The translations under genes and the position numbers were made by a program. 64,000 bases of DNA, from positions 178,552 to 242,551 of the forward strand of contig JAEUTZ010000006.1 in the NCBI GenBank assembly GCA_016787725.1, written 5' to 3'. Positions 11,725 through 30,008 of this stretch are shown one piece after another (within the stretch, counting starts at the first letter, position 1; every line of letters begins with the position of its first letter). The notes beneath the pieces are model-generated. The model searched no databases, was not told the DNA's origin, and was given only the letters and a program-made list of their open reading frames with translations. Origin of the DNA: Cyclobacteriaceae bacterium (lineage in GTDB: Bacteria > Bacteroidota > Bacteroidia > Cytophagales > Cyclobacteriaceae).

Positions 11725-12083
11725 CTGTCTTTCGCTGCAGATTTTAATGATACGGCTGACACTTGATCCCAGCTTATAAAGCGAAAGCCCCTATCATCGA
11801 CATATACATCAGCATTAGGCTTTCCAAAAAATATTTCGTCATACTCTATATGATGGCGTTCAAGCCAATCCAATGTAATTTTCCCAATGTTCTTCATGAC
11901 CCTACCAACATTGGACTGCTGCGTAGCCATATTTCGGGCTGTTTGAATAATGATATAGTGACCTTCAGATTTTAACTTGGAAATAGTTTCAACTGCCCCT
12001 GGCAAGGGAAGCAATTGATCATACGTCTCATTTTCCTTTTTAATGGGACAAATTGTACCGTCCAGATCAATAACTATTCGCAT
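11721..12083 (-). CDS. Small HAD-family phosphatase/capsular biosynthesis protein
   Basis: Only 120 residues long, with the HAD motif I RIVIDLDGTICP (DLDGT at about 5-9), a Thr in motif II (IIIQTARN) and the late acidic motif in VYVDDRG. It has no cap domain, as in the cap-less C0 HAD proteins found in capsule loci. It should hydrolyse or transfer phosphate on a small metabolite. Its position between two nucleotidyltransferases suggests a step in making an activated phospho-substituent. It overlaps both neighbours by 4-10 nt. Confidence 0.75.
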   Translation of the reverse strand: MRIVIDLDGTICPIKKENETYDQLLPLPGAVETISKLKSEGHYIIIQTARNMATQQSNVGRVMKNIGKITLDWLERHHIEYDEIFFGKPNADVYVDDRGFRFISWDQVSAVSLKSAAKDR

Positions 12084-13699
12084 TCGATTATTTCGTTCAA
12101 TCGTGAAATTCCAATTAGAAACATTACCACTTGCCGCAATGGCTTCTCCTTATGCAAAGGCAACATAGAAAGAAAAAGCAACGCTTCAATAAACATGATA
12201 TCTGTATTATCATACCCTTCTCCTGCAACGAAACCATCATATACTTTTTGCAACCCCGATGGTATTTCATTTGTAAATACCTGAAGGCGATAATTCGAGT
12301 TTGATAGTGCGTTTAATTCAAACAAGTCAGCTATAATGTAATCATATAAACCCACCACGCTATGCCTAAGTTTTGCCAAGTCATACCGTGGATCTCCGTA
12401 AACGCCAGGCTTACCAAAACTTCCTCTTGGATCAATCAAACGGATAATCTGGCTATGGTAATCAAAAAGAATATTGGAAAAACAATAATCGCCATGAATA
12501 ACAGAACCTTTATTGTTATTCTTGATTAACTTCTCAATCCGTTTCTTAACCCACGATTCCAGTTGACTAATATTTTTTAACTTCTTGCCATTGACCGATA
12601 TCTCCGGAGCTTCCAAAATTTGTTTCCAATCCTGGTTATGGCTTTGCAAAGCTGCCAGGCGATCAAAAGTTTTGGTAGCGTAAACAGCAAGCATATCTTC
12701 TGGTAAAAGTTCAACCTGGAATTTCCGAAACTCACGTGTCAGCACAATGAGTTTTTTTAAGATGGAAATCCAATTCTCAGTTGTTAAATCAGAAAACAGG
12801 TATAGTTCGGCTAATGTTGGATATCCATAATACTCCTGAACCAAATGAAGCTTTCCATTAACCTCTTGCTTACTTATTATTCTGGGACTTAATACTTTTA
12901 ACTTCTCCGGAATTAATTCATACCACTTCAACTCTTGCCGAAGTTTTTCATCCATTTCACTGACTTTTGTAATTGTGTTTAATATAGGGTCAATTGATAA
13001 GCTATTGAAGTATCTGCCTTGCAATAATTCCCTTCGCGCTTTGATTAAATTATCAATATTTCCAAAGTCCAGCCAGTGACTTGTTTTTACTACCCGAACC
13101 GGGTGAATTTTTTGATACGAAGTTAATACATGACTTATCTGTGTTTGTCCGTTCTGAACGGAGTCTTGAATGCACCCTTTTAGACTACTGGCATGTGTAA
13201 AATGATAGTAACCACAAACCGCCATATTCAGATGATGAACTCCCGGTGATTTATCAATATATGAAACAGCTAGATGATTTTCATCCTGCTCAACAAGACA
13301 CCAACGTTCTGAATCTTCAACCTCCTGAGCATAAATAAAGTCCTCCTGTCGATCATAGGAATCTGTTATCAACGTATCGCCAAGAATTACCCGAACACCC
13401 TCACCTCTAATCTCGGAAAGTCCCTCCGTCAAAGAATGCAGAATTGATTTTGATTCATTGATGATTTTTAACGCTAATTTTATTCTGTTTCCATAAACCC
13501 GTGTTAAAAAATTATAGAGATGATGGTCATCGGCCCGCAGTACTATTATTGCCTCATTGATTTTTTTTTTGATCAGATCCTCCAATATCCAGCCAATCAC
13601 CGGCCTACCGTTAACCGGCACCATAGCATTACTGGTGTTTGTACTAATCGGCAAGTGTACATAATCAATTTTACCTCCACACAAAATAATTGTATTCAT
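12074..13699 (-). CDS. Nucleotidyltransferase-kinase (APH/choline-kinase-like) fusion
   Basis: The 541-residue protein has two domains. Residues 1 to about 230 resemble an NTP_transferase: NTIILCGGKIDYVHLP, NAMVPVNGRPVIGWILEDL and VILGDTLI, with an altered first loop. Residues from about 270 to the end are an aminoglycoside phosphotransferase/choline-kinase-like domain with the catalytic VIHGDYCFSNILFD and the metal-binding IRLIDPRGSFG. It could phosphorylate a small molecule and load it on a nucleotide in one polypeptide, comparable in logic to LicA plus LicC of phosphocholine synthesis, but the substrate is not known. Overlaps upstream and downstream genes. Confidence 0.75.
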   Translation of the reverse strand: MNTIILCGGKIDYVHLPISTNTSNAMVPVNGRPVIGWILEDLIKKKINEAIIVLRADDHHLYNFLTRVYGNRIKLALKIINESKSILHSLTEGLSEIRGEGVRVILGDTLITDSYDRQEDFIYAQEVEDSERWCLVEQDENHLAVSYIDKSPGVHHLNMAVCGYYHFTHASSLKGCIQDSVQNGQTQISHVLTSYQKIHPVRVVKTSHWLDFGNIDNLIKARRELLQGRYFNSLSIDPILNTITKVSEMDEKLRQELKWYELIPEKLKVLSPRIISKQEVNGKLHLVQEYYGYPTLAELYLFSDLTTENWISILKKLIVLTREFRKFQVELLPEDMLAVYATKTFDRLAALQSHNQDWKQILEAPEISVNGKKLKNISQLESWVKKRIEKLIKNNNKGSVIHGDYCFSNILFDYHSQIIRLIDPRGSFGKPGVYGDPRYDLAKLRHSVVGLYDYIIADLFELNALSNSNYRLQVFTNEIPSGLQKVYDGFVAGEGYDNTDIMFIEALLFLSMLPLHKEKPLRQVVMFLIGISRLNEIIECE

Positions 13700-16724: not shown

Positions 16725-17426
16725 TCATCGGACCATGGGTCGAAGTACCTTTTTCCAGAGCCATGTTTTTGCGAGCAGCAACCTCCATAAATAATATTCG
16801 TTACTAATCATACTTGAGAGTTTTCCAGAAAATTCTCTTTTCCGCAAAGCAACCAGTACACTACCCATTCCCGCTGCTTGTGTTTTGGGTGATGATAACA
16901 TGGGAACCATGCATGCATTGTAACGGTTTGTAAATTTATTTACTGCATACACAACGCCAGGAAATTTACCTGCATAATCATGACACAGAACAAAACCAGA
17001 CTTTGCTAACCGGGGCCAAATCAATTTAAGTTCCCCATAAACACTCGGATAATCGTGGAGCGCATCATCGAGCACAAAATCTATGGGAACCCCGGGATGA
17101 TTTTCAATCCAGTTGCTTAGGGAATGTGGGAGCCATCCGGGTACTAGTTCTAAAATACCTTTGTGAATAAAATCCCTTATTTCCGGGTCATTTGATACAG
17201 ACTCTACTACATCCGGAATATCAAATGCATATAGCTTACCTTCTATCATGTTAATCTCCAGAAAGTGACAAATAAATTTGGTAGTAACCGCTTTGTAAAG
17301 TCCCAGCTCCAACAACACATTTCCTCCAGAAAGAACAATAAAATTTCCAAGGATTTGCTTTTCAACTTCAGTCAATGAACCCTTGTCGTTAACAAGTTTG
17401 GGATACTTGATTTCAGTGTAAACCAT
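16725..17426 (-). CDS. Methyltransf_24-like SAM methyltransferase
   Basis: A 233-residue protein with a Rossmann-type core: GGNVLLELGLYKAVTTKF in the motif I position, LYAFDIPD as the acidic strand 2, and the paired DFVLDDALHDYPSVY and SGFVLCHDYAG motifs that characterise Methyltransf_24/TylF-like enzymes. These often need a metal held by the Asp residues. Substrate unknown; methylation of a sugar is inferred from the locus. The start overlaps the dehydrogenase gene by 14 nt. Confidence 0.68.
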   Translation of the reverse strand: MVYTEIKYPKLVNDKGSLTEVEKQILGNFIVLSGGNVLLELGLYKAVTTKFICHFLEINMIEGKLYAFDIPDVVESVSNDPEIRDFIHKGILELVPGWLPHSLSNWIENHPGVPIDFVLDDALHDYPSVYGELKLIWPRLAKSGFVLCHDYAGKFPGVVYAVNKFTNRYNACMVPMLSSPKTQAAGMGSVLVALRKREFSGKLSSMISNEYYLWRLLLAKTWLWKKVLRPMVR

Positions 17427-18369
17427 GAAGTGCCTTTTTTAATTTTTCAGCAATAAACATTTCCGTCATTTCCATCGACTCATACGTTGCTCCAGCTATA
17501 TGCGGGGTGATAATTACATTGTAATTTTCTTTCATTGCCTTTAGCAGTGGGCTGGTGGCGCGCTTTTCAGCTTCCAGTTCAAATTCCAAAACATCTGTGG
17601 CCACTCCAGCCAAATTGCCACGTTGAAGATATTCTCCCACAAACGGTTCATCCCACACACCTCCACGAGAAGTGTTAATCACTAAACTTCCCTTTTTAAA
17701 ATGAGGCAACAACTCCTTTCCAATAAAATGGTGCGTTTTGGCTGAGTACGGAATATGAATGCAGATGATGTCGCTCCAACCTGCTAATGCCCTTGCTTCC
17801 GGAAACCGATGCACAAACTCAAGCCAGGTTGATTGATCGGGGTCATAGGCTGCTACCTCACAATTAAATGCCCTTGCGTAATGAGCCACCTGCTTTCCCA
17901 CTCTGCCTAAACCAAAAATACCCAAACGTTTTCCTGAAAGATTGTGTCCTTTAAATGCATCGCGGTTCCATTGGCCTTGCTGAACCGACTGGACAGCACC
18001 CGGCAACTGACGAACCAAAGCCAGCAACAAAGCCCACGTATGTTCAGCTGTTGAGGGTATTGAGCGCAAAAACTCTTCCTCTCCTTTTAAGCAAATTACC
18101 TGAATATTTCTCTCAGCGGCAGCTGTCAAATCTATATGATCTGTACCGGTTGTTGCACTTAAGATAAATTTCAGGGATTTGCCCCTGTTGATAACTTCAC
18201 GGGTAACTCTTAAACCCAACCTCACAATCAATACATCAAATCCCTGAATCTCTTCTTCTAATTGCTGTTGTGAAAGTTCTTGTTCTGTGACTGTGCCGAG
18301 TTCACTCAGAATGGAGTAAGCTTTTCGACTATACTCATGTGGTTCAGCGTTTAAGATTCTTAAACTCAT
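17413..18369 (-). CDS. D-isomer-specific 2-hydroxyacid dehydrogenase
   Basis: About 318 residues. The NAD-binding loop is LGIFGLGRVGKQV, followed by AYDPDQS; the substrate and catalytic motifs are INTSRGGVWDEPFV and ITPHIAGATYES, where the Arg, Glu and His of the SerA/LdhA family sit. It interconverts a 2-hydroxy acid and a 2-keto acid with NAD(H). Placed between a nonulosonate cassette and modification genes, it may act on an acid building block for the polysaccharide (for example a lactyl or glyceryl group), which is inference. Start at ATG 18369 gives an ATGA overlap with the cytidylyltransferase; a GTG 18 nt upstream is not needed. Confidence 0.82.
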   Translation of the reverse strand: MSLRILNAEPHEYSRKAYSILSELGTVTEQELSQQQLEEEIQGFDVLIVRLGLRVTREVINRGKSLKFILSATTGTDHIDLTAAAERNIQVICLKGEEEFLRSIPSTAEHTWALLLALVRQLPGAVQSVQQGQWNRDAFKGHNLSGKRLGIFGLGRVGKQVAHYARAFNCEVAAYDPDQSTWLEFVHRFPEARALAGWSDIICIHIPYSAKTHHFIGKELLPHFKKGSLVINTSRGGVWDEPFVGEYLQRGNLAGVATDVLEFELEAEKRATSPLLKAMKENYNVIITPHIAGATYESMEMTEMFIAEKLKKALHGLH

Positions 18370-19067
18370 AGTGTACCAGCCTTCCACATTTTTACCAATA
18401 CATCGGCAATGATGAGGTCGCGCTCATCATCAATATTTGCGAGATGCTCACGCTTCATCATATATGCTTTCTTCCGCCTGACCATCAATGTCTTTTCTTT
18501 AAAAAATGCCTCTGTTCTAACCGCATAAATACACCCGTTTCTATAATACACAACAGGCAACTCCTGACGCTGTAAAGTCTCTCCAGAATCAAGAAACGGT
18601 TTCATCCATTGTTCACGATCCGTTGTGTACATGCGTGCCGGGTGAATATCATCCATCGGCACTACCGATATCACACAATCTACCGCATCCTCTTCAAACA
18701 TGGTTATTACTTCATCAATATTCTGACCTGTTCGGATGGGTGATGTTGGTTGCAACAAAACGATTAAATCAAATTCTTCAGCATTAGCAGATTTAAGTTC
18801 ATGCAATACATACTCGATTACCTCCTTGATGGGTGAATGATCTTCTGCCAAAGTAACGGGTCTCATCATGATTTCAGCCCCGGCCGATTTTGCTACTGCT
18901 GCAATTTTTGGGCTATCGGTGCTGACGATCGTCCGGGTAATTCTTTTGCTTTGCAAGGCCGCCTCTACAGCATACGTAATTAAAGGCTGTCCCGCCACCT
19001 CGCGAATGTTTTTATCCCTCACACCTTTTGATCCACCACGTGCCGGGATAATTGCTAACACTTTCAT
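18366..19067 (-). CDS. neuA: CMP-nonulosonate cytidylyltransferase (cassette A)
   Basis: This 233-residue enzyme begins with LAIIPARGGSKGVRDKN, the CTP-binding signature of acylneuraminate cytidylyltransferases, and has VLLQPTSPIRTGQNIDE downstream. It activates a nonulosonic acid (sialic, legionaminic or related) with CTP. It is single-domain, unlike the fused copy at 27291. It stands directly beside the hydrolysing epimerase and the synthase, in the order synthase-epimerase-cytidylyltransferase, so these three form cassette A. The exact sugar cannot be decided from these genes alone. Confidence 0.86.
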   Translation of the reverse strand: MKVLAIIPARGGSKGVRDKNIREVAGQPLITYAVEAALQSKRITRTIVSTDSPKIAAVAKSAGAEIMMRPVTLAEDHSPIKEVIEYVLHELKSANAEEFDLIVLLQPTSPIRTGQNIDEVITMFEEDAVDCVISVVPMDDIHPARMYTTDREQWMKPFLDSGETLQRQELPVVYYRNGCIYAVRTEAFFKEKTLMVRRKKAYMMKREHLANIDDERDLIIADVLVKMWKAGTL

Positions 19068-19076
19068 TCAGGTTTC

Positions 19077-20234
19077 TTAGTAGGTTATTGTTTTATGAAA
19101 TCGCAACGGAACTGTTGCCAATACATCGGCAATCTTATGCCCTGCTTTTGAGTCTCCATAAACATGATCGGCAGGATATTGGCCGTGTACGATTTGCTTT
19201 TGTATAGCACTCAGGATTTCTTCCTTCGAATAATTCACATCGATCACATTCTTTCCACGCTCCCTCCGGTTTTGGCGTGATCCAATGTTAACAACCGGAA
19301 CACCCAGAAAGGCACATTCACGAATACCTGTACTGGAGTTACCAACCAAACAGCGCGAGTTATACAACAGTCTCAAAAAATCAGTGGGTTCCATGTTTTT
19401 GAAAAAATGGATATTGTTGTTCGGATTAAACTCCCGGAAAGATCGAATCCCTGTTGAAGTACCATCAGCCCCTGCATCAACGTTTGGCCAAAACCATAAG
19501 GCTGGCAATCGCGACTGATGAACAGCTTCCAGTGTTTGCGCAACCTGGTTACGTGATTCCTTGTACTCGGTTGTAACAGGATGTTGCATGACCACGATAT
19601 ACTTTTTACTTAAATCCGGAAGGCTACCAACACCACCATACTTATCGTATGGATCGAAATCTAAAGACGGGCTTAGTTGAATTTCAGCTGCCAGGTCAAT
19701 AGAGGGACAACCGGTATTAAATACATACTCCGGATCTTCGCCCATTTTTATAACCCGCTCACGCGCGTTTTCGGAAGCTACTAAATGAATATCCGCCAGC
19801 TTGGTCACCGCATGTCTTACCTTTTCATCGATGTTACCTGTTACTTCACCACCCTGTATATGGGCAAGTGGAATATTTTGATACGATGCAGCAATGGCTG
19901 TAGCGATCGTTTCATACCGGTCGGCAATTGAAATCACCACATCGGGCTTGAGGTTATAAAAAATGTTCGCCAACTCCAGTACCCCCAAGCCGGTAGTCTT
20001 GGCCATCGACATAGGGTTTTCACCCTCCAGCACCATAAACACCTGCTCGTTAATATGAAAACCATCCTTCACGATGTAATCAATCGCGGATCCATAGCGA
20101 TCCAGCAAAGCAGATCCGGCCACCACAAGCTGAAGTTCTAGGTCATCATGTTTATTGATTGCCTCCAGTGCAGACTTCACCCTGCTGTAACTGGGGCGTG
20201 CCGTAATCACTACACATATTTTTCTTTTACTCAT
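19077..20234 (-). CDS. neuC: Hydrolysing UDP-sugar 2-epimerase (NeuC/LegG-like)
   Basis: About 385 residues, a GT-B-fold epimerase with ICVVITARPSYSRVKSAL, ADRYETIATAIAASY, AHIQGGEVTG and CLVGNSSTGIRECAFLGVPVV. These are the marks of the hydrolysing UDP-GlcNAc 2-epimerase branch, which releases ManNAc or a diacetylated analogue as substrate for the synthase next door. Because no UDP-sugar dehydratase/aminotransferase/acetyltransferase set (LegB, LegC, LegH) is visible here, a plain ManNAc product is as likely as a legionaminic precursor. I start at ATG 20234, giving an ATGA overlap with neuB. Confidence 0.85.
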   Translation of the reverse strand: MSKRKICVVITARPSYSRVKSALEAINKHDDLELQLVVAGSALLDRYGSAIDYIVKDGFHINEQVFMVLEGENPMSMAKTTGLGVLELANIFYNLKPDVVISIADRYETIATAIAASYQNIPLAHIQGGEVTGNIDEKVRHAVTKLADIHLVASENARERVIKMGEDPEYVFNTGCPSIDLAAEIQLSPSLDFDPYDKYGGVGSLPDLSKKYIVVMQHPVTTEYKESRNQVAQTLEAVHQSRLPALWFWPNVDAGADGTSTGIRSFREFNPNNNIHFFKNMEPTDFLRLLYNSRCLVGNSSTGIRECAFLGVPVVNIGSRQNRRERGKNVIDVNYSKEEILSAIQKQIVHGQYPADHVYGDSKAGHKIADVLATVPLRFHKTITY

Positions 20235-21235
20235 GCCAGGTCTTTCTCGTTTAAAAAATCCCACTTCTTTAAGTCCCGGGTGAGCGTGCGGCCGATGATA
20301 CGGGTAAACTCTCCTGCCGGAATACCATAGCCTGCAGGCTTTTTACTTTCCAGAAATTCAAACTCAATCGGTGTTCCCTTGCGTAAATCCCGGTTGACTG
20401 AAAGTGATTTGCCAAAAATTTTCTTTACCTCCGCAAAGCGACTCACATCATCTTTCTGATACGAAGCCTGCAAACTCTTACTTATAAAGCGTACTCCGCG
20501 CACCATTTCTTTTAATTGTTCAAGGGTAAGTGAAGACGTAGCATCAGGACCAAACATGCGTTTATCGAATACCGTATGAACTTCTATCATTTCTGCACCC
20601 ATGGTAACCGCTGCCAATGCCGGAAATATTTCGCCACTGTGATCTGACAAACCAACGGGTATCTGGTAACGTTCACGCAAGGCTGGTATCATGTTCAAAC
20701 CAACATGTTCGGCTGGGGTTGGATATTGCGTGTTGCATTGAAATACACTCACAGCTATTTTTCTTTCCTTCAAAAAATTGATAGCCACATCTAATTCCTT
20801 CCAGTCACTCATGCCCGATGACACCATGACTGGCTTCCGGGTACGCGCAATCTTCTCCAGCATCAACAAATTAGAAACTTCGCCAGAACCAATCTTGTAA
20901 CGTTTTACTTGTAAGGACTCCAGTAATTCAACCGCTTGCAAAGAGAATGGCGAAGAAATAAACTCAAGGCCTGCATCCTCACAATGTTTTTTAATTTCCA
21001 CCCATTGCTCTGGTGAAAACTCCATCCGCTTCCAGTAATCAAACCGGGTAGCATCCTGCCGACTGAATTTTACCCGAAAAGGTTCGTGAATGCTGCTTTC
21101 AGCCTCAGCAATGTGGGTTTGGAATTTAATAGAATCAGCACCCGATTCTTTTACCGCATCGATATAAGAATGCACGATGCCCAAACTCCCGTCATGGGCC
21201 TGAGCAATTTCAGCTATTATGAAAGTATCTTTCAT
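20231..21235 (-). CDS. neuB: Nonulosonate synthase with SAF domain (cassette A)
   Basis: 334 residues: an NeuB TIM barrel (FIIAEIAQAHDGSLG, DSIKFQTHIAEAES, SSPFSLQAVELL, KIGSGEVSN, VGLSDHSGEIF, EVHTVFDKRMFGPDA) followed by a C-terminal SAF (antifreeze-like) domain from about residue 270. It condenses PEP with a hexosamine-derived aldehyde to give the free nine-carbon acid. The MFGPD-type motif is typical of bacterial free-sugar synthases and differs from the synthase at 29142. Lies 4 nt from the Gfo/Idh gene and overlaps the epimerase by ATGA. Confidence 0.86.
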   Translation of the reverse strand: MKDTFIIAEIAQAHDGSLGIVHSYIDAVKESGADSIKFQTHIAEAESSIHEPFRVKFSRQDATRFDYWKRMEFSPEQWVEIKKHCEDAGLEFISSPFSLQAVELLESLQVKRYKIGSGEVSNLLMLEKIARTRKPVMVSSGMSDWKELDVAINFLKERKIAVSVFQCNTQYPTPAEHVGLNMIPALRERYQIPVGLSDHSGEIFPALAAVTMGAEMIEVHTVFDKRMFGPDATSSLTLEQLKEMVRGVRFISKSLQASYQKDDVSRFAEVKKIFGKSLSVNRDLRKGTPIEFEFLESKKPAGYGIPAGEFTRIIGRTLTRDLKKWDFLNEKDLA

Positions 21236-21239
21236 CTGA

Positions 21240-22187
21240 TCACATTAATTCTGCAAGCTCTAAAGTCCTTGCGTGATCATCTAAATCTGATCCAGGGAAG
21301 CAAACTTTCCCTAACAAAATAGAATTCACAAAAGTATTTGCTTGAGCCAATAAACCCGGCTTCATATTATCCTTTCTTGATATCACTATCGGCTTACTGG
21401 ATCCATCTGCATAAATAATATTACCTCTTTCTAATGGCTTAAGTCTGACCTCCACTCCCTCTCCATGTAAAATAAGTTCCCATTGATTCATTCCACCCAT
21501 TGAATTTATAGAAACAAAAGATCCAGAAATTCCTGATTTAAATTTAACTAAAGCAACTCTTGATTTTTCATAGCCTACTTTGTTTGATATAGCATTAACT
21601 TCCAACACATCACCAGCAATCAAACGCATCAAATCAATAATATGAATTGTGTTCATTTTAAACCACTCATCATAAACAATTGGATCATATTTACCCTCAG
21701 CTCGGTAACTGCTAACCGGGTCAGGGGCAATCACAGTCAAGGCTAATATATTCCCATAGTACTTCGAAGTAAGAATAGCATCCAATACCGTAGAGTAGAA
21801 TCTTCTGTTCATTGCTACCATTGCAATTAAACCCTTCGATTCTGCCAATCTCCCAAGTGCCTTGGTCCCAACACTATGTAATGACACGGGCTTTTCAACT
21901 AAAATGTGCAGACCATATTCTAAGACTTCTTCAGCAGTTTTTTCAGTTAGTAAGTGAGGAACAGCAATAACCGCTGCTGTTGCGTTGCTTCTCCTAGCCT
22001 CTTCCCGCCAATCAGTTCCATAAAAAGCTAAACCAAACCTTTTAGCCAATTTCATTGCAGATTCACTAGTCCGACTTGAAACAGCAACAATTTCAACTAA
22101 TATATTTTTTGAAAATGCATTTGCATGTTCATGGCCCATTTTGCCCGCGCCAATAATCAGTAATCGTATTTTATCTGATCCAGTCAT
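21240..22187 (-). CDS. Gfo/Idh/MocA-family oxidoreductase
   Basis: About 315 residues. A Rossmann fold with IGAGKMGHEHANAF, AVIAVPHLLT and the ILVEKPVSLH motif (EKP) defines the family; the C-terminal alpha/beta domain with NTIHIIDLMR carries the usual catalytic-site residues. It oxidises or reduces a sugar or cyclitol with NAD(P). I prefer the ATG at 22187, which overlaps the upstream stop by 1 nt, to a TTG one codon earlier. It is one of two adjacent, different family members, so a two-step redox change or epimerisation is possible. Confidence 0.8.
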   Translation of the reverse strand: MTGSDKIRLLIIGAGKMGHEHANAFSKNILVEIVAVSSRTSESAMKLAKRFGLAFYGTDWREEARRSNATAAVIAVPHLLTEKTAEEVLEYGLHILVEKPVSLHSVGTKALGRLAESKGLIAMVAMNRRFYSTVLDAILTSKYYGNILALTVIAPDPVSSYRAEGKYDPIVYDEWFKMNTIHIIDLMRLIAGDVLEVNAISNKVGYEKSRVALVKFKSGISGSFVSINSMGGMNQWELILHGEGVEVRLKPLERGNIIYADGSSKPIVISRKDNMKPGLLAQANTFVNSILLGKVCFPGSDLDDHARTLELAELM

Positions 22188-23305
22188 CAAGCAAAACTGA
22201 ATTTTTCATTTATGATCTTGCCACGCAAGGGCAATTGAATCCAATTGCCGCCAATCTTACTCGATTCATGAACTGCAATTGTTGCTTCTAATGCAGCTTT
22301 GCCGTCTATCAAACTACACCGTGGTGGAATATTTCTTGAGAGTTCAGAAAGGCTTAGCCCTAAACCATAGTTCACCATTTCTTTCCATGGATAATGCTTT
22401 TGCCATTCAACTCCTGAAGGTCCAATCATTCGTATTCTTTCATTTCTCTGATCAACTTCCAATCTTCCACGTTCGCAAAAAATGATTAAGAAATCTTGTT
22501 GGATTTCAAGATTATCAGACAGGTCAACAATAACTTTAATACCATTCTCCATTTTAACTTCGCAACTACCAGAAGGATCAATAAATTCTGCACCTCTCCA
22601 AGTGGGTCGGTGTATAGAATCTAAAAGTCCGCGAACCTCCATGATATTACTCTTTGCGAGCATTCTGCAATAATCGAAAATATGAGTTCCAATCATTGCA
22701 AATCCTGCTCTACCAAATACATAATGGATCGTAATTATTTTTCCAATACTATCCGTTCGAATTAATCTATCTATACTTTCCGCAGTGGCTGTCCACCTTC
22801 TAAGATGATCTACATACACGGTTGCAGAATTTAATTTCGCTAGCTGAATCAATGACTCAGCATCAGCCAATGATGTGCAAATTGGTTTCTCAATGAATAT
22901 TTTTTTTATTCCTGATTTTAAGGCCTGAGAAGCAAGATCATAATGCGAGTTAGCAGTAGTTGCAATAATTAATACATCTTCTTTTCCCACACCGCCCAGA
23001 AATTGATCTAAGTTTTGGGATGCAGCAATCTGCTTATTAAGTTGTAGCGATAGCTTGGAAATGGACTCTAAGTTCTTATCAAAGGCAGATACTATTTGCC
23101 AGCCTTCAATAGAGTTAATAACATGGGCAATTTGGCGACCCATTGCTCCGCACCCTACAATATGAGCTCTAACATAAGTCTTTTCTAGCTTAACTGATTC
23201 AATAAATTTTATGCGCTTAAATTGATAATACTCATTTTGTTCCTTACCAAGAACTTTTAAACGCTGAAGGATGAGTTTGATAATCGTCTTAATCTTTGCC
23301 AGCAT
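22187..23305 (-). CDS. Gfo/Idh/MocA-family oxidoreductase
   Basis: 372 residues with a 30-residue basic N-terminal extension before the Rossmann motif HIVGCGAMGRQIAHVI; ILIIATTANSHYDLA and KIFIEKPICTS (EKP) follow, and the C-terminal domain includes GTHIFDYCRML. This is a second, divergent family member next to the one at 21240. An NAD(P)-dependent sugar redox step in the cytoplasm is likely; substrate unknown. Only 5 nt separate it from the glycosyltransferase gene. Confidence 0.8.
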   Translation of the reverse strand: MLAKIKTIIKLILQRLKVLGKEQNEYYQFKRIKFIESVKLEKTYVRAHIVGCGAMGRQIAHVINSIEGWQIVSAFDKNLESISKLSLQLNKQIAASQNLDQFLGGVGKEDVLIIATTANSHYDLASQALKSGIKKIFIEKPICTSLADAESLIQLAKLNSATVYVDHLRRWTATAESIDRLIRTDSIGKIITIHYVFGRAGFAMIGTHIFDYCRMLAKSNIMEVRGLLDSIHRPTWRGAEFIDPSGSCEVKMENGIKVIVDLSDNLEIQQDFLIIFCERGRLEVDQRNERIRMIGPSGVEWQKHYPWKEMVNYGLGLSLSELSRNIPPRCSLIDGKAALEATIAVHESSKIGGNWIQLPLRGKIINEKFSFA

Positions 23306-23310
23306 TAATT

Positions 23311-24480
23311 TTATCCGTTATTGAATTTACTGATGGCATTTCTTGAAATTTTATCATAACGCCTTTGAACAATTTCACTTGAATTGAAATAATGGTTTTC
23401 AAAAGTACTTCTTCCGCCATCTGATAGTGTTTGTCTTAATTCTTCTGAATTGATAAGCTTTAAAGAATGTTCAATGAATTGTTCGGGGTTATTTGCAATT
23501 AAACAGTTTTTGCCATGGATAGCTTCAGGCAATCCTATTTGAGAAGAAGCATCCATTATTACAGGCACTCCATGCGCCCAAGCCTCAACTACTCTCGTCC
23601 TAAATCCTAATTTTATTGGCACAGAAACAAGAACAGCGATTGCATTTCGGTATTCCTCAAGAATTGAGTCAGCAAATCCAATAAACTTTAATCCTTCCTG
23701 GTTTTGAGGAGGTGGACCTAAACGTTTCTCGGGATATCGACCGCCACCTACTAATCTTACCGTTGCCGAATTTAACAACGAGCTCTTACGCCATATAGGC
23801 CAAATTCTTTTTAAGAAAAATTCAACGCCATATCTTGTATGAATCGTATCAAAGTTTCCGAGAACTAGAAAATTCTTTATACCCGAATAACTAACTTTTT
23901 CAATATAGTTCGGAAAGGATAACTCGCATAATTCTACTCGTGTATTAATTTGTTTTTCACGGTATTTAATATCACCAACACCGTATGCAGCTACAACTCC
24001 CCTTTGTTTACATGCTCTTAAGAAGTCTCTTTCTAGTTTATAGATTTTCCGTGCTTCTAGTCGGTTTTCAATATAATACTTTACTCTTCTTAGAATCCCC
24101 TTCTCTGCGCCACCATCATAACGAAATCTAAATTTCTTAATGAGATCTAATGGATCTCCTGCAACAACCACATGAGGATACCTTAGGCTAAGTGATCCAA
24201 AATTTTCCCAATCAGGAATAGGATGAATCCATACTACATCGGGCTGGTATTCGTCCAAAAATCTTTTCACGAGGATTTTTCTTTCTTCCAATGTTGACGC
24301 AAAACAATTAGCAAGTTTGTAATGAAATTTTTCCTCATTGCCAATTTTTCCAGTTCCTGTATAGCAAATACCAACATTATACCCCGAAGCGCTTATTGAA
24401 CTCGCAATAGCAAATGCTCCAATATTACCCCCGGCCCCGGTAGGATGAGGAAGAAAAGATGAAATTAAAACCGCTTTCAT
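23311..24480 (-). CDS. Glycosyltransferase family 4-like protein
   Basis: 389 residues. The N-terminus SSFLPHPTGAGGNIGAFAIASS is a typical GT4 acceptor-domain loop, and the C-terminal half has FLVLGNFDT, GLKFIGFADSILEEYRNA and RTRVVEAWAHGVPVIMD, a modified E-x7-E region in which the first Glu is replaced. The basic, charged segment at about 115-150 may contact the membrane. It should act in the cytoplasm on the repeat unit. Start ATG overlaps the epimerase stop by 4 nt. Confidence 0.75.
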   Translation of the reverse strand: MKAVLISSFLPHPTGAGGNIGAFAIASSISASGYNVGICYTGTGKIGNEEKFHYKLANCFASTLEERKILVKRFLDEYQPDVVWIHPIPDWENFGSLSLRYPHVVVAGDPLDLIKKFRFRYDGGAEKGILRRVKYYIENRLEARKIYKLERDFLRACKQRGVVAAYGVGDIKYREKQINTRVELCELSFPNYIEKVSYSGIKNFLVLGNFDTIHTRYGVEFFLKRIWPIWRKSSLLNSATVRLVGGGRYPEKRLGPPPQNQEGLKFIGFADSILEEYRNAIAVLVSVPIKLGFRTRVVEAWAHGVPVIMDASSQIGLPEAIHGKNCLIANNPEQFIEHSLKLINSEELRQTLSDGGRSTFENHYFNSSEIVQRRYDKISRNAISKFNNG

Positions 24481-25556
24481 TCTGGGATTGGAACACCAAT
24501 TTCAATTCTCTTCCCGGCCACTTCAACAACTCTTGTCATACCCTCTCTCAATGATATAGTTGGATAAAAGCCAAGCTTCTCTCGCGTATATTCCGGGTCA
24601 CAATATCGTTTGGCAACGCCTACAGGCATTCCGGCTTTACCTTTTACCTTAGGTTTATATCCTGCAATGTCACCCATCAGTGTTGCCAATTCAAGAAACG
24701 AGGTAGCCACTCCACTACCGATATTTACTGCCGAACCATCTTTTATATTTTCAATGGCCAGCAACATACAGGTAATACAATCTTCAATGTGTACAAAATC
24801 CCGGCATTGTTCGCCCGTACCCCAAACGTAAAGTGGATCGTATTTCGCTGCTGCGCGCATGGCAATGGCTGGCACTGGGTAAACAGGTTCCTGCCACTCC
24901 CCGTACCCACTAAAAGGACGAATGACTGCCGCTGAAAGTCCGTAATTACGATGAGCTATCCGGCTTAAGAATTCTCCCGTAAGTTTACTCCAACCATACG
25001 TAAAATCAGGAGCGGCAAAACCCTTTTCAAAGTCAATCATTTCTTCCCTAAGTGCTATATCCTTGTCGGCTTCCTGAAGGGATATAGGATAGGCCGCACT
25101 GGATGAAGCATATAAAATTCTGTCTGGTCGGTTTACTTTTGCGGCCCACAGAAAAAAAACGGAATCAATGGCCAGGTCCAACCCAACTGATAACGGATCG
25201 CCATCAATCTTCACTCTTCCGCCCACAATGGATGCCAGGTGATACACGTAATCCATTTTCGGTAATTTGAAACTTATCGTAACTGGAATATTTCCGAGTT
25301 CTCCCAAAAAGACAGGAAGTACATCGGATTTAATAAACTTAATAGTGCCGGGCGTACCTTTAGCCTGAAAAATATGTATATCACCTTCCCTGCCGGCAGC
25401 TTCTAATTTTAACTCAGGCCATTGGTGTGGTGAAATACCTGTTGAGAGGTCGTCAATCACCCATATGGTTTTTGTCTCATTGCCTTTTATTAACCGGGCC
25501 ACAAGGTTTCGTCCAACAAAACCGGCTCCGCCTGTTACCAGAATATTAGTTTGCAT
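24477..25556 (-). CDS. NAD-dependent sugar epimerase/dehydratase (extended SDR)
   Basis: 359 residues, an extended short-chain dehydrogenase: NILVTGGAGFVGRNL (GxxGxxG), YASSSAAYPIS and YGWSKLTGEF (YxxxK) give the Ser-Tyr-Lys set; AAVIRPFSGYGEW and YVWGTGEQCRDFVHIEDC follow the family. A 25-residue insertion around 50-80 is unusual for UDP-glucose 4-epimerase. It epimerises or dehydrates a nucleotide sugar for one of the transferases nearby; no particular product can be assigned. 51 nt separate it from the upstream capsule-type gene. Confidence 0.8.
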   Translation of the reverse strand: MQTNILVTGGAGFVGRNLVARLIKGNETKTIWVIDDLSTGISPHQWPELKLEAAGREGDIHIFQAKGTPGTIKFIKSDVLPVFLGELGNIPVTISFKLPKMDYVYHLASIVGGRVKIDGDPLSVGLDLAIDSVFFLWAAKVNRPDRILYASSSAAYPISLQEADKDIALREEMIDFEKGFAAPDFTYGWSKLTGEFLSRIAHRNYGLSAAVIRPFSGYGEWQEPVYPVPAIAMRAAAKYDPLYVWGTGEQCRDFVHIEDCITCMLLAIENIKDGSAVNIGSGVATSFLELATLMGDIAGYKPKVKGKAGMPVGVAKRYCDPEYTREKLGFYPTISLREGMTRVVEVAGKRIEIGVPIPE

Positions 25557-25607
25557 GTAAAAAAATAAACACTCTTACATAACTCAATTAGATCTTCCGT
25601 GTGATTT

Positions 25608-27275
25608 CTATAGTAAATCATAGTCATCACTATTCATCATCCACTCGCTCAGCTTTTTATAGGAGACACTGCTCTTAAATTCGTCCAGTGACTTTGGTGC
25701 GATGGCCACGTTGTTAAAAAGTTCACTTTGTGCCTCATGAAACTTCTTAAGTTCCATGGGCAGAATGTCTTCCATGTTCGTTTGCTTATGCTTCATGAGG
25801 TAATAGTAATGTTTGCGCGCCAGCAATACCTGCTCAGGTGTTAATCGCGGTATCGTATGAAGTTTGTCCAGCAGAGTAAAATATTCCTGTTGTGTGTTTG
25901 TATCAATCGTGAAGCCTCGTCCATTATAACGACCGGTGCCTGCCAATACTGAGGGTATGCCAAAACAAGGAAACTCCATGCCTACCGTTCCGTTTACCGT
26001 GAGCACATAATCCACCACCGGAAATAAAGAGTGTGTGTTGATATCGGTATCGGCCCTCATGATAATAACATGTTCAGGCAATGGATCCAGTTGCTTTAAT
26101 AATCTGATTTCCGATTCTTCCTTTTTCTCCTCCCGCTGCAATTTAAATGCATTGAAAGGATGAAGTTTCACCACCCAATTGATGTCGGAGCAATTAGTAG
26201 CCACATATTTAACAGTTTCAAAAAGCCAGCGCTCGTAGTCGCCAAAAATACACGTACCATAAAAGAAAGCCGCATCCCAGGCTATGTGTGAAAAAATAAT
26301 AGCCGTTTTTTTTGACGGGTCAAGCCCTAGTTGTTTCCGAACCTCATCGGGATCCTTTTTCACTTTACCAAACTGCAATCTCCTTGTATCGGAAAGTGAA
26401 TCTGCCTTATACCTTCCCTCAAACTCTTCCTTTAACAACCTCTCATGTTCATCTGTCCAGGGTAAGTTCTTCACATGATCCCATGTGTTTGCTGAAATAG
26501 AAAAGTAATGTTCATTCTTATTTTTTGTATCGTGTCTTTTAAACACCCAGGCGCCCTTCTGTTGCCCAAAATCATGCACAATGCAATCAACACCCTGGTG
26601 AAGTGCTGATTCAAAAATGCCTCCGTTGGGTACATAACCGGAATCACGCACGAGCATCTTTTTAACCGGGTACTGTGTCAACATTTCTTTGGCAGCTAAC
26701 ACACTAATGAGTGCTCTCCGAAAGTAGAATCGCAATGCATCCTGGGTTTCCTGATCGTTGATATCTAACTGACCTTCTAATCTTTTACGGCACACCATGG
26801 ATAATGCATGTTTCCCAATATCTACATGCTCGTATCTCAATGAAATCAAGGTATCAATATCAATAAAGGGCGGAAACAACTCCGACACTAATTGATCTAC
26901 CCGTCCGAGGTCAACATGCTTTGCTTCGAAGTCATCCCAAAAAAGAAAATCGTTAATTCCCAATAACCGGTAGTACTCAAATGCAACGGCATTGCCTCGA
27001 TAGGTTACAATCAGCGTCTTATACCCGGCAAGTTGGGCCATCTTAGCAATTACTGTATGCAGCTTTGCATACATCGGCACTTTCGTAAAACTCAATACAA
27101 CAAAGAAACCTTTCGTGGCCAGTGAATCAGAACCAAGCTGCCCCCACTGTCGGGTTGCTATTCTGGTAAGCTTGATGTCATCGCGGACTTCATTTCTAAA
27201 ATTCCTGTACTTTTCATCCCTGAAATAGCGTAGTTTTTTTGCTAAAAAACGATATACCTCAACTCGAATACTCAT
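25608..27275 (-). CDS. Capsule-polysaccharide-type transferase (KpsS/KpsC-like fold), candidate nonulosonate or Kdo transferase
   Basis: About 555 residues with no membrane segment. The C-terminal half contains KTAIIFSHIAWDAAFF, WVVKLHPFNAF (the HP motif), VDYVLTVNGTVGMEFPCFG and IPSVLAGTGRYNGRG, a pattern shared with Capsule_synth (PF05159) proteins and other GT-B transferases that use CMP-activated ulosonic acids. It is immediately downstream of the CMP-nonulosonate synthetase fusion, so transfer of that sugar is a reasonable guess. The family call rests on short motifs, and the N-terminal 250 residues are not recognised. ATG at 27275 is preferred to TTG at 27284. Confidence 0.5.
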   Translation of the reverse strand: MSIRVEVYRFLAKKLRYFRDEKYRNFRNEVRDDIKLTRIATRQWGQLGSDSLATKGFFVVLSFTKVPMYAKLHTVIAKMAQLAGYKTLIVTYRGNAVAFEYYRLLGINDFLFWDDFEAKHVDLGRVDQLVSELFPPFIDIDTLISLRYEHVDIGKHALSMVCRKRLEGQLDINDQETQDALRFYFRRALISVLAAKEMLTQYPVKKMLVRDSGYVPNGGIFESALHQGVDCIVHDFGQQKGAWVFKRHDTKNKNEHYFSISANTWDHVKNLPWTDEHERLLKEEFEGRYKADSLSDTRRLQFGKVKKDPDEVRKQLGLDPSKKTAIIFSHIAWDAAFFYGTCIFGDYERWLFETVKYVATNCSDINWVVKLHPFNAFKLQREEKKEESEIRLLKQLDPLPEHVIIMRADTDINTHSLFPVVDYVLTVNGTVGMEFPCFGIPSVLAGTGRYNGRGFTIDTNTQQEYFTLLDKLHTIPRLTPEQVLLARKHYYYLMKHKQTNMEDILPMELKKFHEAQSELFNNVAIAPKSLDEFKSSVSYKKLSEWMMNSDDYDLL

Positions 27276-27290
27276 TTCTGTCAACGCCTG

Positions 27291-28460
27291 TTATTTTGCC
27301 CTACACACCATATTTACTACTTCCCTAAATGCCCCCTCCCCTCCCTGGCTTTGAAGCTTGAGTATTTTTGGTACTGATTTTATTTTTTCAACCGCATTGG
27401 CAGGACACGCGGCCAGGCCTGCGTTTAGTAGTAAATCTAAATCATTCACATCATCCCCGATATAAGCAACCTGATCAAGCGTAAACCCGCAAAGGGTGCA
27501 TATTTCCTTTGCAATCGAAAGTTTATCCTGCACACCCTGGTAGAGAAAATCGGCTTTAATTTTTTTTGCCCTGCGCTCCACAATTGATGTATTCTCCGAA
27601 GTGATGATGGCTGTTTTAATTCCATTCATTCTCAGAATTTCAAATCCCCTCCCATCTTGTGTGTTGAATTTTTTATACTCCTCGCCATGCTCACCATAAT
27701 ACATGCCTGCATCTGTTAACACACCATCCACATCGGTCATCACGATTTTGATGTTGCTGTAATCCGGTGCTTTATCCTTTAGAATAAGCTCATTCATTAA
27801 TGATTCACAAATCACCCAATCATGGGGTTCGTCCAACTCATACCCGGTAAACTCTTCCATTTCATAAACAGCAATAGAACCTGATAATCTGTTTTGATCA
27901 CGGAGGACATTACCAACCGTGTTTACATAGAGTGCACCATTCTCCATAAAAAGTCCCTGATAGTCTTGTCTCCTGAGACGCTTTCTAAAATCATAGTTCA
28001 ATGGCGTTCCATCCTTATTCCAAAAGAAACGTTTTGATAAGCAACAAGACAACAACGAATCGGCTTTTGAAGATTGAAGCAGCGCTATAGCTTCGTTTAC
28101 ATTTACACTCGTAAGAAACGGGTTGGTTGCCTGAACCAATAAAAAGAGATCATTGTTTGCTTGTGGATGCTTTGATAAAAATTCCATCATCACACTTTCT
28201 GTTGACGAGCGATCCTGCGCATTCAGGGAATCACGCTCATACAGTTTTACTTTTGAAAAATTAAAGGTCTTTACGCAATCCATTATTTCTTTACAATCGG
28301 TTGCTACGTAAACAACATCCACCGAAGCGCTCTCCTGAAGGGCTTGAACTGACCAAAAGAGCAGTGGTTTTCCACAAAACTCTTTTATATTCTTAAGTGG
28401 TATTGATTTACTCCCGCAACGCACCGGAATAAACCCAATCACCTTTGCAGTCTTATTCAT
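27291..28460 (-). CDS. neuA: CMP-nonulosonate synthetase fused to KDO8P-phosphatase-like HAD domain (cassette B)
   Basis: The 389-residue protein has two domains. Residues 1 to about 225 are an acylneuraminate cytidylyltransferase (FIPVRCGSKSIPLKN, LLVQATNPFLT). Residues 236-389 are a KdsC-like HAD phosphatase with MTDVDGVLTDAGMYYG (DVDGVLTD at 243-250), IITSENTSIVERRA and YIGDDVNDLDLL, so the nucleophile and metal residues are kept. This layout parallels animal CMAS, and the phosphatase domain would fit a pathway passing through a 9-phosphate. It clusters with a NANS-like synthase at 29142. Stop lies 15 nt before the capsule-type transferase. Confidence 0.85.
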   Translation of the reverse strand: MNKTAKVIGFIPVRCGSKSIPLKNIKEFCGKPLLFWSVQALQESASVDVVYVATDCKEIMDCVKTFNFSKVKLYERDSLNAQDRSSTESVMMEFLSKHPQANNDLFLLVQATNPFLTSVNVNEAIALLQSSKADSLLSCCLSKRFFWNKDGTPLNYDFRKRLRRQDYQGLFMENGALYVNTVGNVLRDQNRLSGSIAVYEMEEFTGYELDEPHDWVICESLMNELILKDKAPDYSNIKIVMTDVDGVLTDAGMYYGEHGEEYKKFNTQDGRGFEILRMNGIKTAIITSENTSIVERRAKKIKADFLYQGVQDKLSIAKEICTLCGFTLDQVAYIGDDVNDLDLLLNAGLAACPANAVEKIKSVPKILKLQSQGGEGAFREVVNMVCRAK

Positions 28461-28463
28461 TAT

Positions 28464-29132
28464 TTAAAATTCATTTTTTACGATAAAGGAAGGGACCTGA
28501 TAAAAGGGAAGTTTTTTAATCTCTACATCTTTACCGGCAAAAAAATCATCGACTGCTTTGGTCTCACCCGGGAAAGTTCCATAGTCGTCAAAAACGATTA
28601 ACCCCCCTTTTACCACGTGTTTATAAAATGTGTTCAAAATGGTTACAGCCGGCTCATATACATCTGTATCAATGTGAAGGAAAGCGATTTTAAGCTGAGG
28701 GTGTTTTTTCACGTAATCAGGAACTGTATTATTAATATTTCCTTTTACAAGTTCAATATTTTTTAACCCTTTAAATTCAAAAACTTTTTCAAGCTCATCA
28801 ATCTGTATACTTTCATCTCCTGCTGAGGAAATGAACTTGTCTAAGAATTGTTTGTCATCTTTAAAATTTGTGTCCGGGAACTTTCCGAAAATATCAAATC
28901 CTATTATTTTCCGCGAAAAGGGGTTCTCCAGAAGTTCACGAAAGGTTGCCAGTCGTTGCAACGAATTGCCTTTAAAAACACCACACTCAATAATTTGTCC
29001 AGGAAGATCCACGATCCGTTTATACAACTCATAGTGGGCCAAAAATTTACCCATTCTATCAATCTGACTGGTTACGTAAAAGCCATTCTCGTAGAAAAAG
29101 CTTTTTTCAGTATCGAACTCGTTTAGTATCAT
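28464..29132 (-). CDS. TylF/MycF-like methyltransferase
   Basis: About 222 residues: GQIIECGVFKGNSLQRLA as SAM motif I, IIGFDIFGKFPDT as strand 2, and LHIDTDVYEPAVTILNTF with GGLIVFDDYGTFPGE as the metal-binding Asp pairs of the TylF/MycF sugar O-methyltransferases. A sugar hydroxyl is the probable target. It lies inside cassette B between synthase and CMP-synthetase, so it may methylate the nonulosonic acid or a co-polymerised sugar. ATG at 29132 is preferred to TTG two codons upstream. Confidence 0.8.
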   Translation of the reverse strand: MILNEFDTEKSFFYENGFYVTSQIDRMGKFLAHYELYKRIVDLPGQIIECGVFKGNSLQRLATFRELLENPFSRKIIGFDIFGKFPDTNFKDDKQFLDKFISSAGDESIQIDELEKVFEFKGLKNIELVKGNINNTVPDYVKKHPQLKIAFLHIDTDVYEPAVTILNTFYKHVVKGGLIVFDDYGTFPGETKAVDDFFAGKDVEIKKLPFYQVPSFIVKNEF

Positions 29133-29141
29133 CTTCAAAAT

Positions 29142-30008
29142 CTATTTTCTGTATTTCAGTTTTTGACGCTGAACCTCTTCAATGTCAAGAATTTCCTTTT
29201 CCTTATAGTGCAGAGATTTATAGGTTGCCTGCAGGTTTCTCACCAGTTTACTTAAACCGGTTGGCTCAAGGGAAGCGGCATGATCGGTACCTTTCCATGT
29301 TCTGTCTTTTGTAAAGTGCCGTTCAATCCAGGTGGCTCCCAATGTATAAGCAGCCACGTCAATTGCAATTCCCAAGTGATGTCCCGAAAAACCAACCGAA
29401 CCAATTGTTGAACCATGTGACGATGATAATTTGGATATTTCAAGCAAGCACACATCCTCAAAAGGAACCGGGTAGCCTGATGTACAAGAATAGATAACGA
29501 GTCTGTTATTTTGTCCCTTGTCTTTAAAAAAAGATACTACTGAATCAGTTTCAGCATGTGTAGTCATTCCGGTTGAAATGTGAACATCCCCTTTATATGT
29601 ATCGCGTAAAAGAGCCAACATCTCAAAATTATTATTGCATGCCGAGGGAACTTTAATAAAGGAAGGATTCAACTCAATAATTTCCTTTGCGGATGTGTTG
29701 TCCCATACAGATGTAGAATACGTTATGCCTAAACTTTCACAATATTTTTTTAACTCGGCATGTTCATCAATGTCAAACTCCAGATAGTTTCTATGTTCGC
29801 CATAGGTACTCCCAAAAGAGTTTGACGGGTTGGGGTGAGGGGCATTGTATTGCTCCTCTGTCAGTAATTCTTTAGGGTTTCTCTTTTGAAACTTGGCCAC
29901 GTTGGCACCGCACTCCTTAGCAAGCTTAATGAGCTCTTTAGCAATTTCGAATTGCCCCATATGATTACATCCGATTTCAGCAATTACCTGTGGGTTTTTA
30001 TAAACCAT
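29142..30008 (-). CDS. neuB: NANS-like nonulosonate (9-phosphate) synthase lacking the SAF domain (cassette B)
   Basis: 288 residues, an NeuB-type TIM barrel: VIAEIGCNHMGQFEIA, NVAKFQKRNPKEL, STYGEHRNYLEF, GMTTHAETDS, GFSGHHLGIAI and WIERHFTKDRTWKGTDHA. The FQK, YGEH, LEF and TWKGxDHxASLEP stretches resemble animal sialic-acid-9-phosphate synthase more than the synthase at 20231. The protein ends at the barrel; the usual C-terminal SAF domain is absent. It would condense PEP with a (probably phosphorylated) hexose-type aldehyde. It is followed at once by a methyltransferase and the CMP-synthetase/phosphatase fusion. Confidence 0.82.
   Translation of the reverse strand: MVYKNPQVIAEIGCNHMGQFEIAKELIKLAKECGANVAKFQKRNPKELLTEEQYNAPHPNPSNSFGSTYGEHRNYLEFDIDEHAELKKYCESLGITYSTSVWDNTSAKEIIELNPSFIKVPSACNNNFEMLALLRDTYKGDVHISTGMTTHAETDSVVSFFKDKGQNNRLVIYSCTSGYPVPFEDVCLLEISKLSSSHGSTIGSVGFSGHHLGIAIDVAAYTLGATWIERHFTKDRTWKGTDHAASLEPTGLSKLVRNLQATYKSLHYKEKEILDIEEVQRQKLKYRK

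Follow-up and report, generated by a model that had tools for sequence, protein, structure and literature searches.

A 64,000-nucleotide stretch of DNA from a Cyclobacteriaceae bacterium (hereafter the window), part of contig 22 of a 4.2-Mb genome, carries two cassettes for nonulosonic acids within a long minus-strand polysaccharide region. There is good reason to think that cassette B (27291–30008) makes ketodeoxynononic acid (KDN), activated with cytidine monophosphate (CMP) to CMP-KDN, by a 9-phosphate route, and that cassette A (18366–21235) follows a free-sugar route, both being housed in one polysaccharide locus. A preliminary description had put forward two distinct nonulosonate routes, passing through a 9-phosphate in cassette B but not in cassette A: the phosphatase family match (NF058599), two specificity residues, the closest solved relative of the CMP-synthetase (9t4z) and the synthase phylogeny all argue for this proposal. 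The genes of both cassettes lie on the minus strand, where the preliminary description had placed them.

Cassette B is composed of three genes: a nonulosonate(-9-phosphate) synthase devoid of a SAF domain (29142–30008; 288 residues; PF03102, 233.7 bits), a fusion of a CMP-synthetase with a KdsC-type phosphatase (27291–28460) and, between the two, a TylF-type O-methyltransferase (28464–29138; 224 residues; PF05711, 70.7 bits against a cut-off of 23), which was missing from the earlier list of genes. To gather relatives of the synthase, genome_contigs was scanned with an alignment built from nine of them (A1), yielding at least 592 stretches and at least 554 relatives. The best 80 of 554 were kept, and the shares given below for these 80 B-type loci describe the closest 80 of at least 554 relatives.

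The fused enzyme of cassette B

The fused protein, 389 residues long, comprises a CMP-synthetase (residues 9–209; PF02348, 79.3 bits) followed by a HAD domain of the KDN-9-phosphatase type (residues 237–385), whose NF058599 score is marginal, barely above the NCBIfam KDN-9-phosphatase cut-off (180.9 against 180). Among solved proteins, the HAD half matches 3e81 (E 1.7e-43) and the CMP-synthetase half is closest to 9t4z (E 3e-34), an entry titled CMP-Kdn synthetase. The solved chain of 9t4z has 251 residues and is too short for an added phosphatase domain, whereas the chain of cassette B holds both domains. 9t4z may be PpNeuA, the P. parvum enzyme. The predicted structure of the fusion has a mean predicted local distance difference test score of 92.9 and both folds are recognized, the fold matches coming from VIA-align 2. 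Residues D243, D245, E289, K300, K313, D336 and D337 are invariant across 30 aligned fusions. The preliminary view of a CMP-synthetase fused to an active-looking KdsC-type phosphatase is thus upheld by the matched domains and the retained catalytic residues, as far as sequence can tell.

Two residues point to the specificity of the phosphatase. According to their PDB titles, 4hgq and 4hgr are the E56A and E56A/K67A variants of the Bacteroides thetaiotaomicron KDN-9-phosphatase; E56 and K67 correspond to E289 and K300 in the window, where both are present. Among 69 HAD domains from the neighbourhoods of B-type synthases, E289, R297, K300, K313 and D243 are kept without exception, D245 in 68 (one X) and D336 and D337 in 68 (one gap). 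A second set of 46 HAD rows from NeuB-holding loci, which contains duplicate fetches of one gene, shows the E and K pair in 45; L027 has D and K instead, and in L024 the fetched frame is devoid of the first catalytic motif. Of nine HAD rows whose fetched stretch contains no NeuB, five lack the pair and four have it; for two of these four (the window's own row and L022) a NeuB lies immediately beyond that stretch. An internal control is provided by a stand-alone KdsC-type phosphatase outside cassette B (40166–40711, minus strand; TIGR01670, 151.9 against a cut-off of 106.95), which carries R and E at the two sites and stays below the thresholds of both NF058599 (166.1 against 180) and the KdsC model (165.0 against 208). 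A gene for ketodeoxyoctonate-8-phosphate synthase, above its model cut-off, lies nearby (38458–39294). The idea that the HAD domain of cassette B is the genome's KdsC was ruled out, as this separate KdsC exists and differs at both sites.

Within 6 kb of the synthase, 58 of the 80 B-type loci hold a CMP-synthetase/HAD fusion, 10 hold both as separate genes, one a HAD only, seven a CMP-synthetase only and four neither. In seven of the 11 loci lacking a HAD the contig ends within 3 kb, in the other four it does not. The HAD domain occurs outside a fusion in 11 of 69 B-type neighbourhoods and, judging from a tree in which the starred branches force at least four changes of the label 'fused', it seems to switch between the fused and the free state; bootstrap values in that tree are unsettled, L097 may be a frameshift, and 27 of 58 fused rows were retained (31 dropped). 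The window KdsC and L030 are set apart in it (support 100/99). In a side observation, L063, L066, L067 and L074 share a format of synthase, separate NeuA-like gene, Gfo/Idh-like gene or one of that size, gene of SDR size and stand-alone HAD.

The likeness to vertebrate CMAS noted in the preliminary description is one of domain order, a CMP-synthetase followed by a KdsC-type HAD, and the murine structures 1qwj (E 2.6e-24) and 3ewi (E 9.7e-14) match the fusion. It does not extend to function: the C-terminal phosphatase module of vertebrate CMAS shows no phosphatase activity in vitro (PMC8636478), whereas the HAD domain of cassette B retains all catalytic residues, D243 and D245 included, and would be expected to be active.

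The SAF-less synthase and its relatives

The cassette B synthase terminates with its TIM domain: the NeuB match ends at residue 270 of 288, so there is no room for a SAF domain. In all of the 80 best loci the open frame stops 0–7 residues past the aligned domain, and eight NeuB catalytic positions (Neisseria numbering) are kept in all 80. Record titles assign ten of these loci to other phyla, nine of them being metagenome bins. Of 395 genomes sampled evenly across the phylum, 11 have a B-type synthase (E 1e-60 or better), with frames of 287–300 codons. In a sample of the window's own family it is found in 5 of 60 genomes at 59–100% identity, the next relatives appearing only at 37%. Ten phylum-sample loci besides the window were inspected: a fusion lies within 1.5 kb in seven, an eighth (G242) has a HAD 2.5 kb away, and in L166 and L167 the flank that was fetched contains no HAD and no fusion. 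On these sequences, the B-type synthases are a distinct SAF-less clade, a widespread bacterial variant. Relatives are also encoded on viral_contigs, in 372 of 401 pattern-matching stretches (L176–L255) on contigs reaching 548 kb: of the best 80, 79 end no more than 25 residues past the TIM domain and are SAF-less, and among the 19 with at least 50% identity two have a fusion and seven a HAD and a CMP-synthetase nearby. Named phage records hold three relatives in 50,697, at 27–35% identity.

A tree was built from 60 TIM domains with a midpoint root, after removal of duplicate loci and cut open reading frames; because of this root its groupings are splits and not rooted clades. The closest BT1713 relative in the fetched genomes is 72% identical. 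All 27 B rows, including 14 taken from the 80 loci, group together (100/100). Synthases located beside BT1713-like phosphatases make up their own group of 17 rows (99/95) and differ from B in extending 52–61 residues past the TIM domain, which corresponds to SAF. A third, SAF-less group has three rows (100/99). These 47 phosphatase-linked rows, some of which had been found via their phosphatase, fall together (99/89). Outside them are 10 SAF-bearing rows without a nearby HAD, cassette A included, together with PseI and 2wqp (Neisseria NeuB). Cassette A sits on a long branch that is joined to the Neisseria enzyme with weak support (84/21). The solved protein 6ncs, from Leptospira, is short like the B synthase, with 290 residues; it lacks K42, R43 and Y69 and joins next to the linked 47, not inside. 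Fourteen SAF-bearing loci (L136–L149) were identified solely through their similarity to the B synthase: the six with a HAD in the flank of about 1.5 kb all belong to the linked set, and the eight without one there all lie outside it. The outcome that would have refuted the two-route proposal, a single bacterial NeuB clade uniting both synthases of the window, was not obtained in this phylogeny, which was computed without BT1714.

R43 and Y69 occur in all 47 linked rows and K42 in 45, and none of the three is found in 12 free-sugar rows. K42, R43 and Y69 are candidate contacts for the 6-phosphate. SAF absence alone was rejected as a predictor of the phosphate route, phosphatase linkage and the K/R/Y signature being better ones.

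The third phosphatase-linked synthase type (L159:7900–15233, L041:7811–14199 and L045:8043–15004) has companions of its own. In L159, which belongs to the window's own genus, these are two transketolase halves, an aminotransferase like glutamate-semialdehyde aminomutase, an SDR and a KdsB-like cytidylyltransferase; beside the synthase of L045 stand one transketolase half and an aminotransferase of the same type; L041 is similar by eye and has a HAD fused ahead of its synthase. Another synthase, L044:5870–7615, has an N-terminal extension of about 250 residues that no NCBIfam model matches at E 1e-30, and a KDN-type HAD lies nearby. An additional isomerase/epimerase domain is described for the Serratia NeuB (PMC9000132).

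The relation to animal NANS was examined with a human sequence that agrees with 13 of 13 published positions. Added to the tree, this sequence falls in the linked set (97/90), and its placement as sister of B is weak (81/57). Over 260 columns it is 41.5% identical to cassette B and 34.4% to cassette A, yet by pairwise score NANS stands no closer to B (187 bits) than to the free-sugar synthase of L147 (192) or to L044 (215). NANS shares K42, Y69, G70, H72 and G209 with B and carries S, Y and K at positions 43, 69 and 42. The preliminary description had ascribed to the B synthase NANS-like motifs without a SAF domain, and both are indeed seen; its label 'animal-like architecture' is half wrong and, for the synthase, unsupported. 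Animal NANS has a C-terminal antifreeze/SAF domain (PMC13214540), and NANS residues 293–359 match 1wvo at E 2e-36, whereas B has no such domain. Loss of SAF as a mark of animal-type synthases is ruled out, since NANS and the synthases beside BT1713-like phosphatases both carry it.

Cassette A and the two routes

Cassette A is a NeuA-NeuC-NeuB set on the minus strand. NeuA (18366–19067; 233 residues; PF02348, CTP_transf_3, 92.8 bits) has as its best solved match 1eyr (E 2.7e-31), a CMP-synthetase for N-acetylneuraminic acid (Neu5Ac). NeuC (19077–20264; 395 residues) is a hydrolysing 2-epimerase of uridine diphosphate N-acetylglucosamine (UDP-GlcNAc; TIGR03568, 401.6 bits against 235.9), and NeuB (20231–21235; 334 residues; PF03102, 234.7 bits) bears a C-terminal SAF domain. 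The alignment of NeuB to solved 8h2c and 1xuu runs to their C-termini, and its last 76 residues alone match 8h2c in a PDB search (E 0.0012), 1wvo not being among the matches. Family matches and this C-terminal alignment agree with the gene set originally described. Cassette A thus combines a SAF domain, a NeuC partner and the lack of an adjoining phosphatase that characterize free-sugar synthases; no HAD was seen next to its NeuB in 3.7 kb (L002).

The simplest reading is that cassette A represents the ordinary bacterial route from free N-acetylmannosamine (ManNAc) to CMP-Neu5Ac. NeuC would convert UDP-GlcNAc to ManNAc, NeuB would condense free ManNAc with phosphoenolpyruvate, and NeuA would activate the product, most likely to CMP-Neu5Ac. 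Gene content, SAF domain and absence of a neighbouring phosphatase are as in the NeuB-NeuC-NeuA sets of the Neisseria and Escherichia coli type, from which cassette A differs in that its synthase scores below the Neu5Ac-synthase cut-off (TIGR03569, 300.2 against 399.65); Neu5Ac is for this reason no more than a likely product.

From the genes, domains, conserved residues, phylogeny, neighbourhoods and predicted fusion fold we infer another course for cassette B. Its synthase, which also misses the TIGR03569 cut-off (202.4 against 399.65), would condense mannose-6-phosphate, the most likely substrate, with phosphoenolpyruvate to give KDN-9-phosphate. Dephosphorylation would fall to the HAD domain of the fusion, and the CMP-synthetase domain of the same polypeptide would turn KDN into CMP-KDN. 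At some stage the sugar is probably O-methylated by the TylF-type enzyme. KDN, one of the two product types suggested in the preliminary description, appears the likeliest one, as the halves of the fusion are nearest to KDN enzymes among solved sequences, no NeuC was seen in the fetched DNA of the 80 B-type loci, no NanE exceeds its cut-off in the genome (two weak matches fall below) and an isomerase of the bifunctional phosphoglucose/phosphomannose type is encoded (PF10432, with a weak PF01050 match too). Several observations make KDN less than certain: the genome has no type I isomerase, it encodes three ROK kinases, and NeuC is present in cassette A.

These kinases and the NeuC of cassette A would suit a scheme in which the product of cassette B is Neu5Ac, or a different N-acylated nonulosonate, formed through a 9-phosphate from ManNAc-6-phosphate, both cassettes feeding Neu5Ac-type sugars, and human NANS, placed in the same set as B, accepts ManNAc-6-phosphate besides mannose-6-phosphate (Km table, PMC6200933). 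This is unlikely: none of the 80 B-type loci has a NeuC homologue in the stretches fetched, which extend no more than 8 kb to each side, NanE hits remain below cut-off, and the closest named relatives of both fusion halves are KDN enzymes, one of which, the CMP-Kdn synthetase of P. parvum, does not use Neu5Ac (PMC6200933) and may be identical with 9t4z. It is highly improbable that the fused HAD merely plays a structural part, as in vertebrate CMAS, and that cassette B uses free sugars. The catalytic and specificity residues are kept in 68 to 69 of the 69 domains, the domain exists outside a fusion in 11 of 69 neighbourhoods with at least four changes of the label 'fused' (L097 perhaps a frameshift), and the B synthase groups with the phosphatase-linked ones.

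Less likely than the CMP-KDN proposal is a product that is another 9-phosphate ulosonate, KDN being an intermediate or not formed at all; a methylated C9 acid, or an acid derived from an unusual hexose-6-phosphate, would be examples. This reading overlaps with the CMP-KDN proposal where KDN is methylated. The TylF methyltransferase within cassette B speaks for it, as do neighbour clusters with an SDR representative (9 of 80 loci) and a Gfo/Idh representative (8 of 80), the clustering having left out open reading frames shorter than 140 residues or containing X. A 5-O-methyl-Kdn polysaccharide is reported from Sinorhizobium fredii in a title within the reference list of PMC9000132. Set against this, the synthase and the two-domain fusion recur in 58 of 80 loci and would, with mannose-6-phosphate, be enough for CMP-KDN, and a methyltransferase homologue (more than 45% identical, within 3 kb) accompanies only three of the 80 (L070, L115 and L121), a further one standing beside the B-type synthase of L166 in the phylum sample. 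Such homologues, together with the Sinorhizobium polysaccharide, make methylation of the cassette B sugar plausible as an addition to the CMP-KDN route. Separately, genes about 30% identical to the methyltransferase adjoin BT1713-like phosphatases in L006 and L010–L013, in four of the five standing between phosphatase and synthase, and have weak Pfam methyltransferase matches at most.

The wider locus and its significance

Between the two cassettes are two Gfo/Idh/MocA oxidoreductases, an NAD-dependent epimerase and a Capsule_synth-family protein; the gene at 23311–24480 has no NCBIfam match at E 1e-30. The Capsule_synth-family protein (25608–27284, minus strand; 558 residues; PF05159, 23.3 bits against a cut-off of 20) adjoins cassette B and may be a glycosyltransferase. 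Eleven of the 80 B-type loci have within 6 kb, upstream in 10 of the 11, a gene belonging to one sequence cluster, whose representative (L123) is a GT52/polysialyltransferase-type protein (PF07922, E 7.7e-21), a neighbour that fits a CMP-nonulosonate donor. A third NeuB of the genome lies on another contig and groups with a solved pseudaminic acid synthase. Genes adjoining the B-type locus of L074, a Cyclobacteriaceae bin, are 77–88% identical to those of the window.

A second synthase is near one of the 80 B-type loci (L060), and in the family genome G405 a B-type synthase, for which 19 kb of sequence shows no HAD, has a pseudaminic acid cluster some 8.5 kb away, with PseC and PseI above their cut-offs. 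A single locus with two nonulosonate sets therefore seems uncommon, not unique. The two sugars of the window may, as the preliminary description suggested, enter one polymer. Directly beside cassette A are a D-2-hydroxyacid dehydrogenase (17413–18387) and a methyltransferase (16725–17426). Further away, a nucleotidyltransferase domain is fused to an APH-type kinase domain (12074–13699), adjoining a small HAD-like protein (11721–12083, by eye) and a second nucleotidyltransferase (11002–11724).

Among the characterized systems closest to cassette B is the KDN pathway of B. thetaiotaomicron, which consists of the BT1713 phosphatase, a KDN-9-phosphate synthase and a CMP-KDN synthetase. Both have a HAD of the KDN-9-phosphatase type with the same two residues and a phosphatase-linked synthase, and both would be expected to lead from mannose-6-phosphate to CMP-KDN; the BT1713-type phosphatase is a stand-alone protein, whereas that of cassette B is fused to the CMP-synthetase. 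For Leptospira, PMC3438082 proposes that a gene fusion underlies a 9-phosphate route in bacteria, likewise within a locus of multiple nonulosonate genes; the extra domain is on the synthase there and on the CMP-synthetase in cassette B. A KDN capsule is recorded for Serratia (PMC9000132). As the 9-phosphate route is known in bacteria (PMC6200933) and CMP-synthetase/phosphatase fusions have already been reported from some of them, neither is new as a kind. What is new is the SAF-less clade, observed in all of the 80 closest loci and in 11 of 395 phylum genomes, fused in 58 of 80 and beside NeuC in none; the open-licence papers searched, through listings and passages, yielded no description of it or of its pairing with an active-looking fusion. 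It would be a long shot to place the B type closest to the animal pathway among living bacteria, its SAF-less synthase being sister to NANS and its fusion a still bifunctional CMP-KDN synthetase/KDN-9-phosphatase of the kind from which vertebrate CMAS, with a phosphatase module now inactive, arose, and to have it load O-methylated KDN beside Neu5Ac on one polymer in this locus.

If the proposed route holds, a sizeable bacterial clade, encompassing 11 of 395 genomes of the phylum and members of other phyla, would make KDN-type sialic acids by a route commonly portrayed as the animal one, with a compact SAF-less synthase and, mostly, a bifunctional enzyme. The E and K of the phosphatase and K42, R43 and Y69 of the synthase would serve as markers that separate 9-phosphate from free-sugar pathways in genomes, and a locus with both chemistries would offer a natural test of the destinations of the two sugars.

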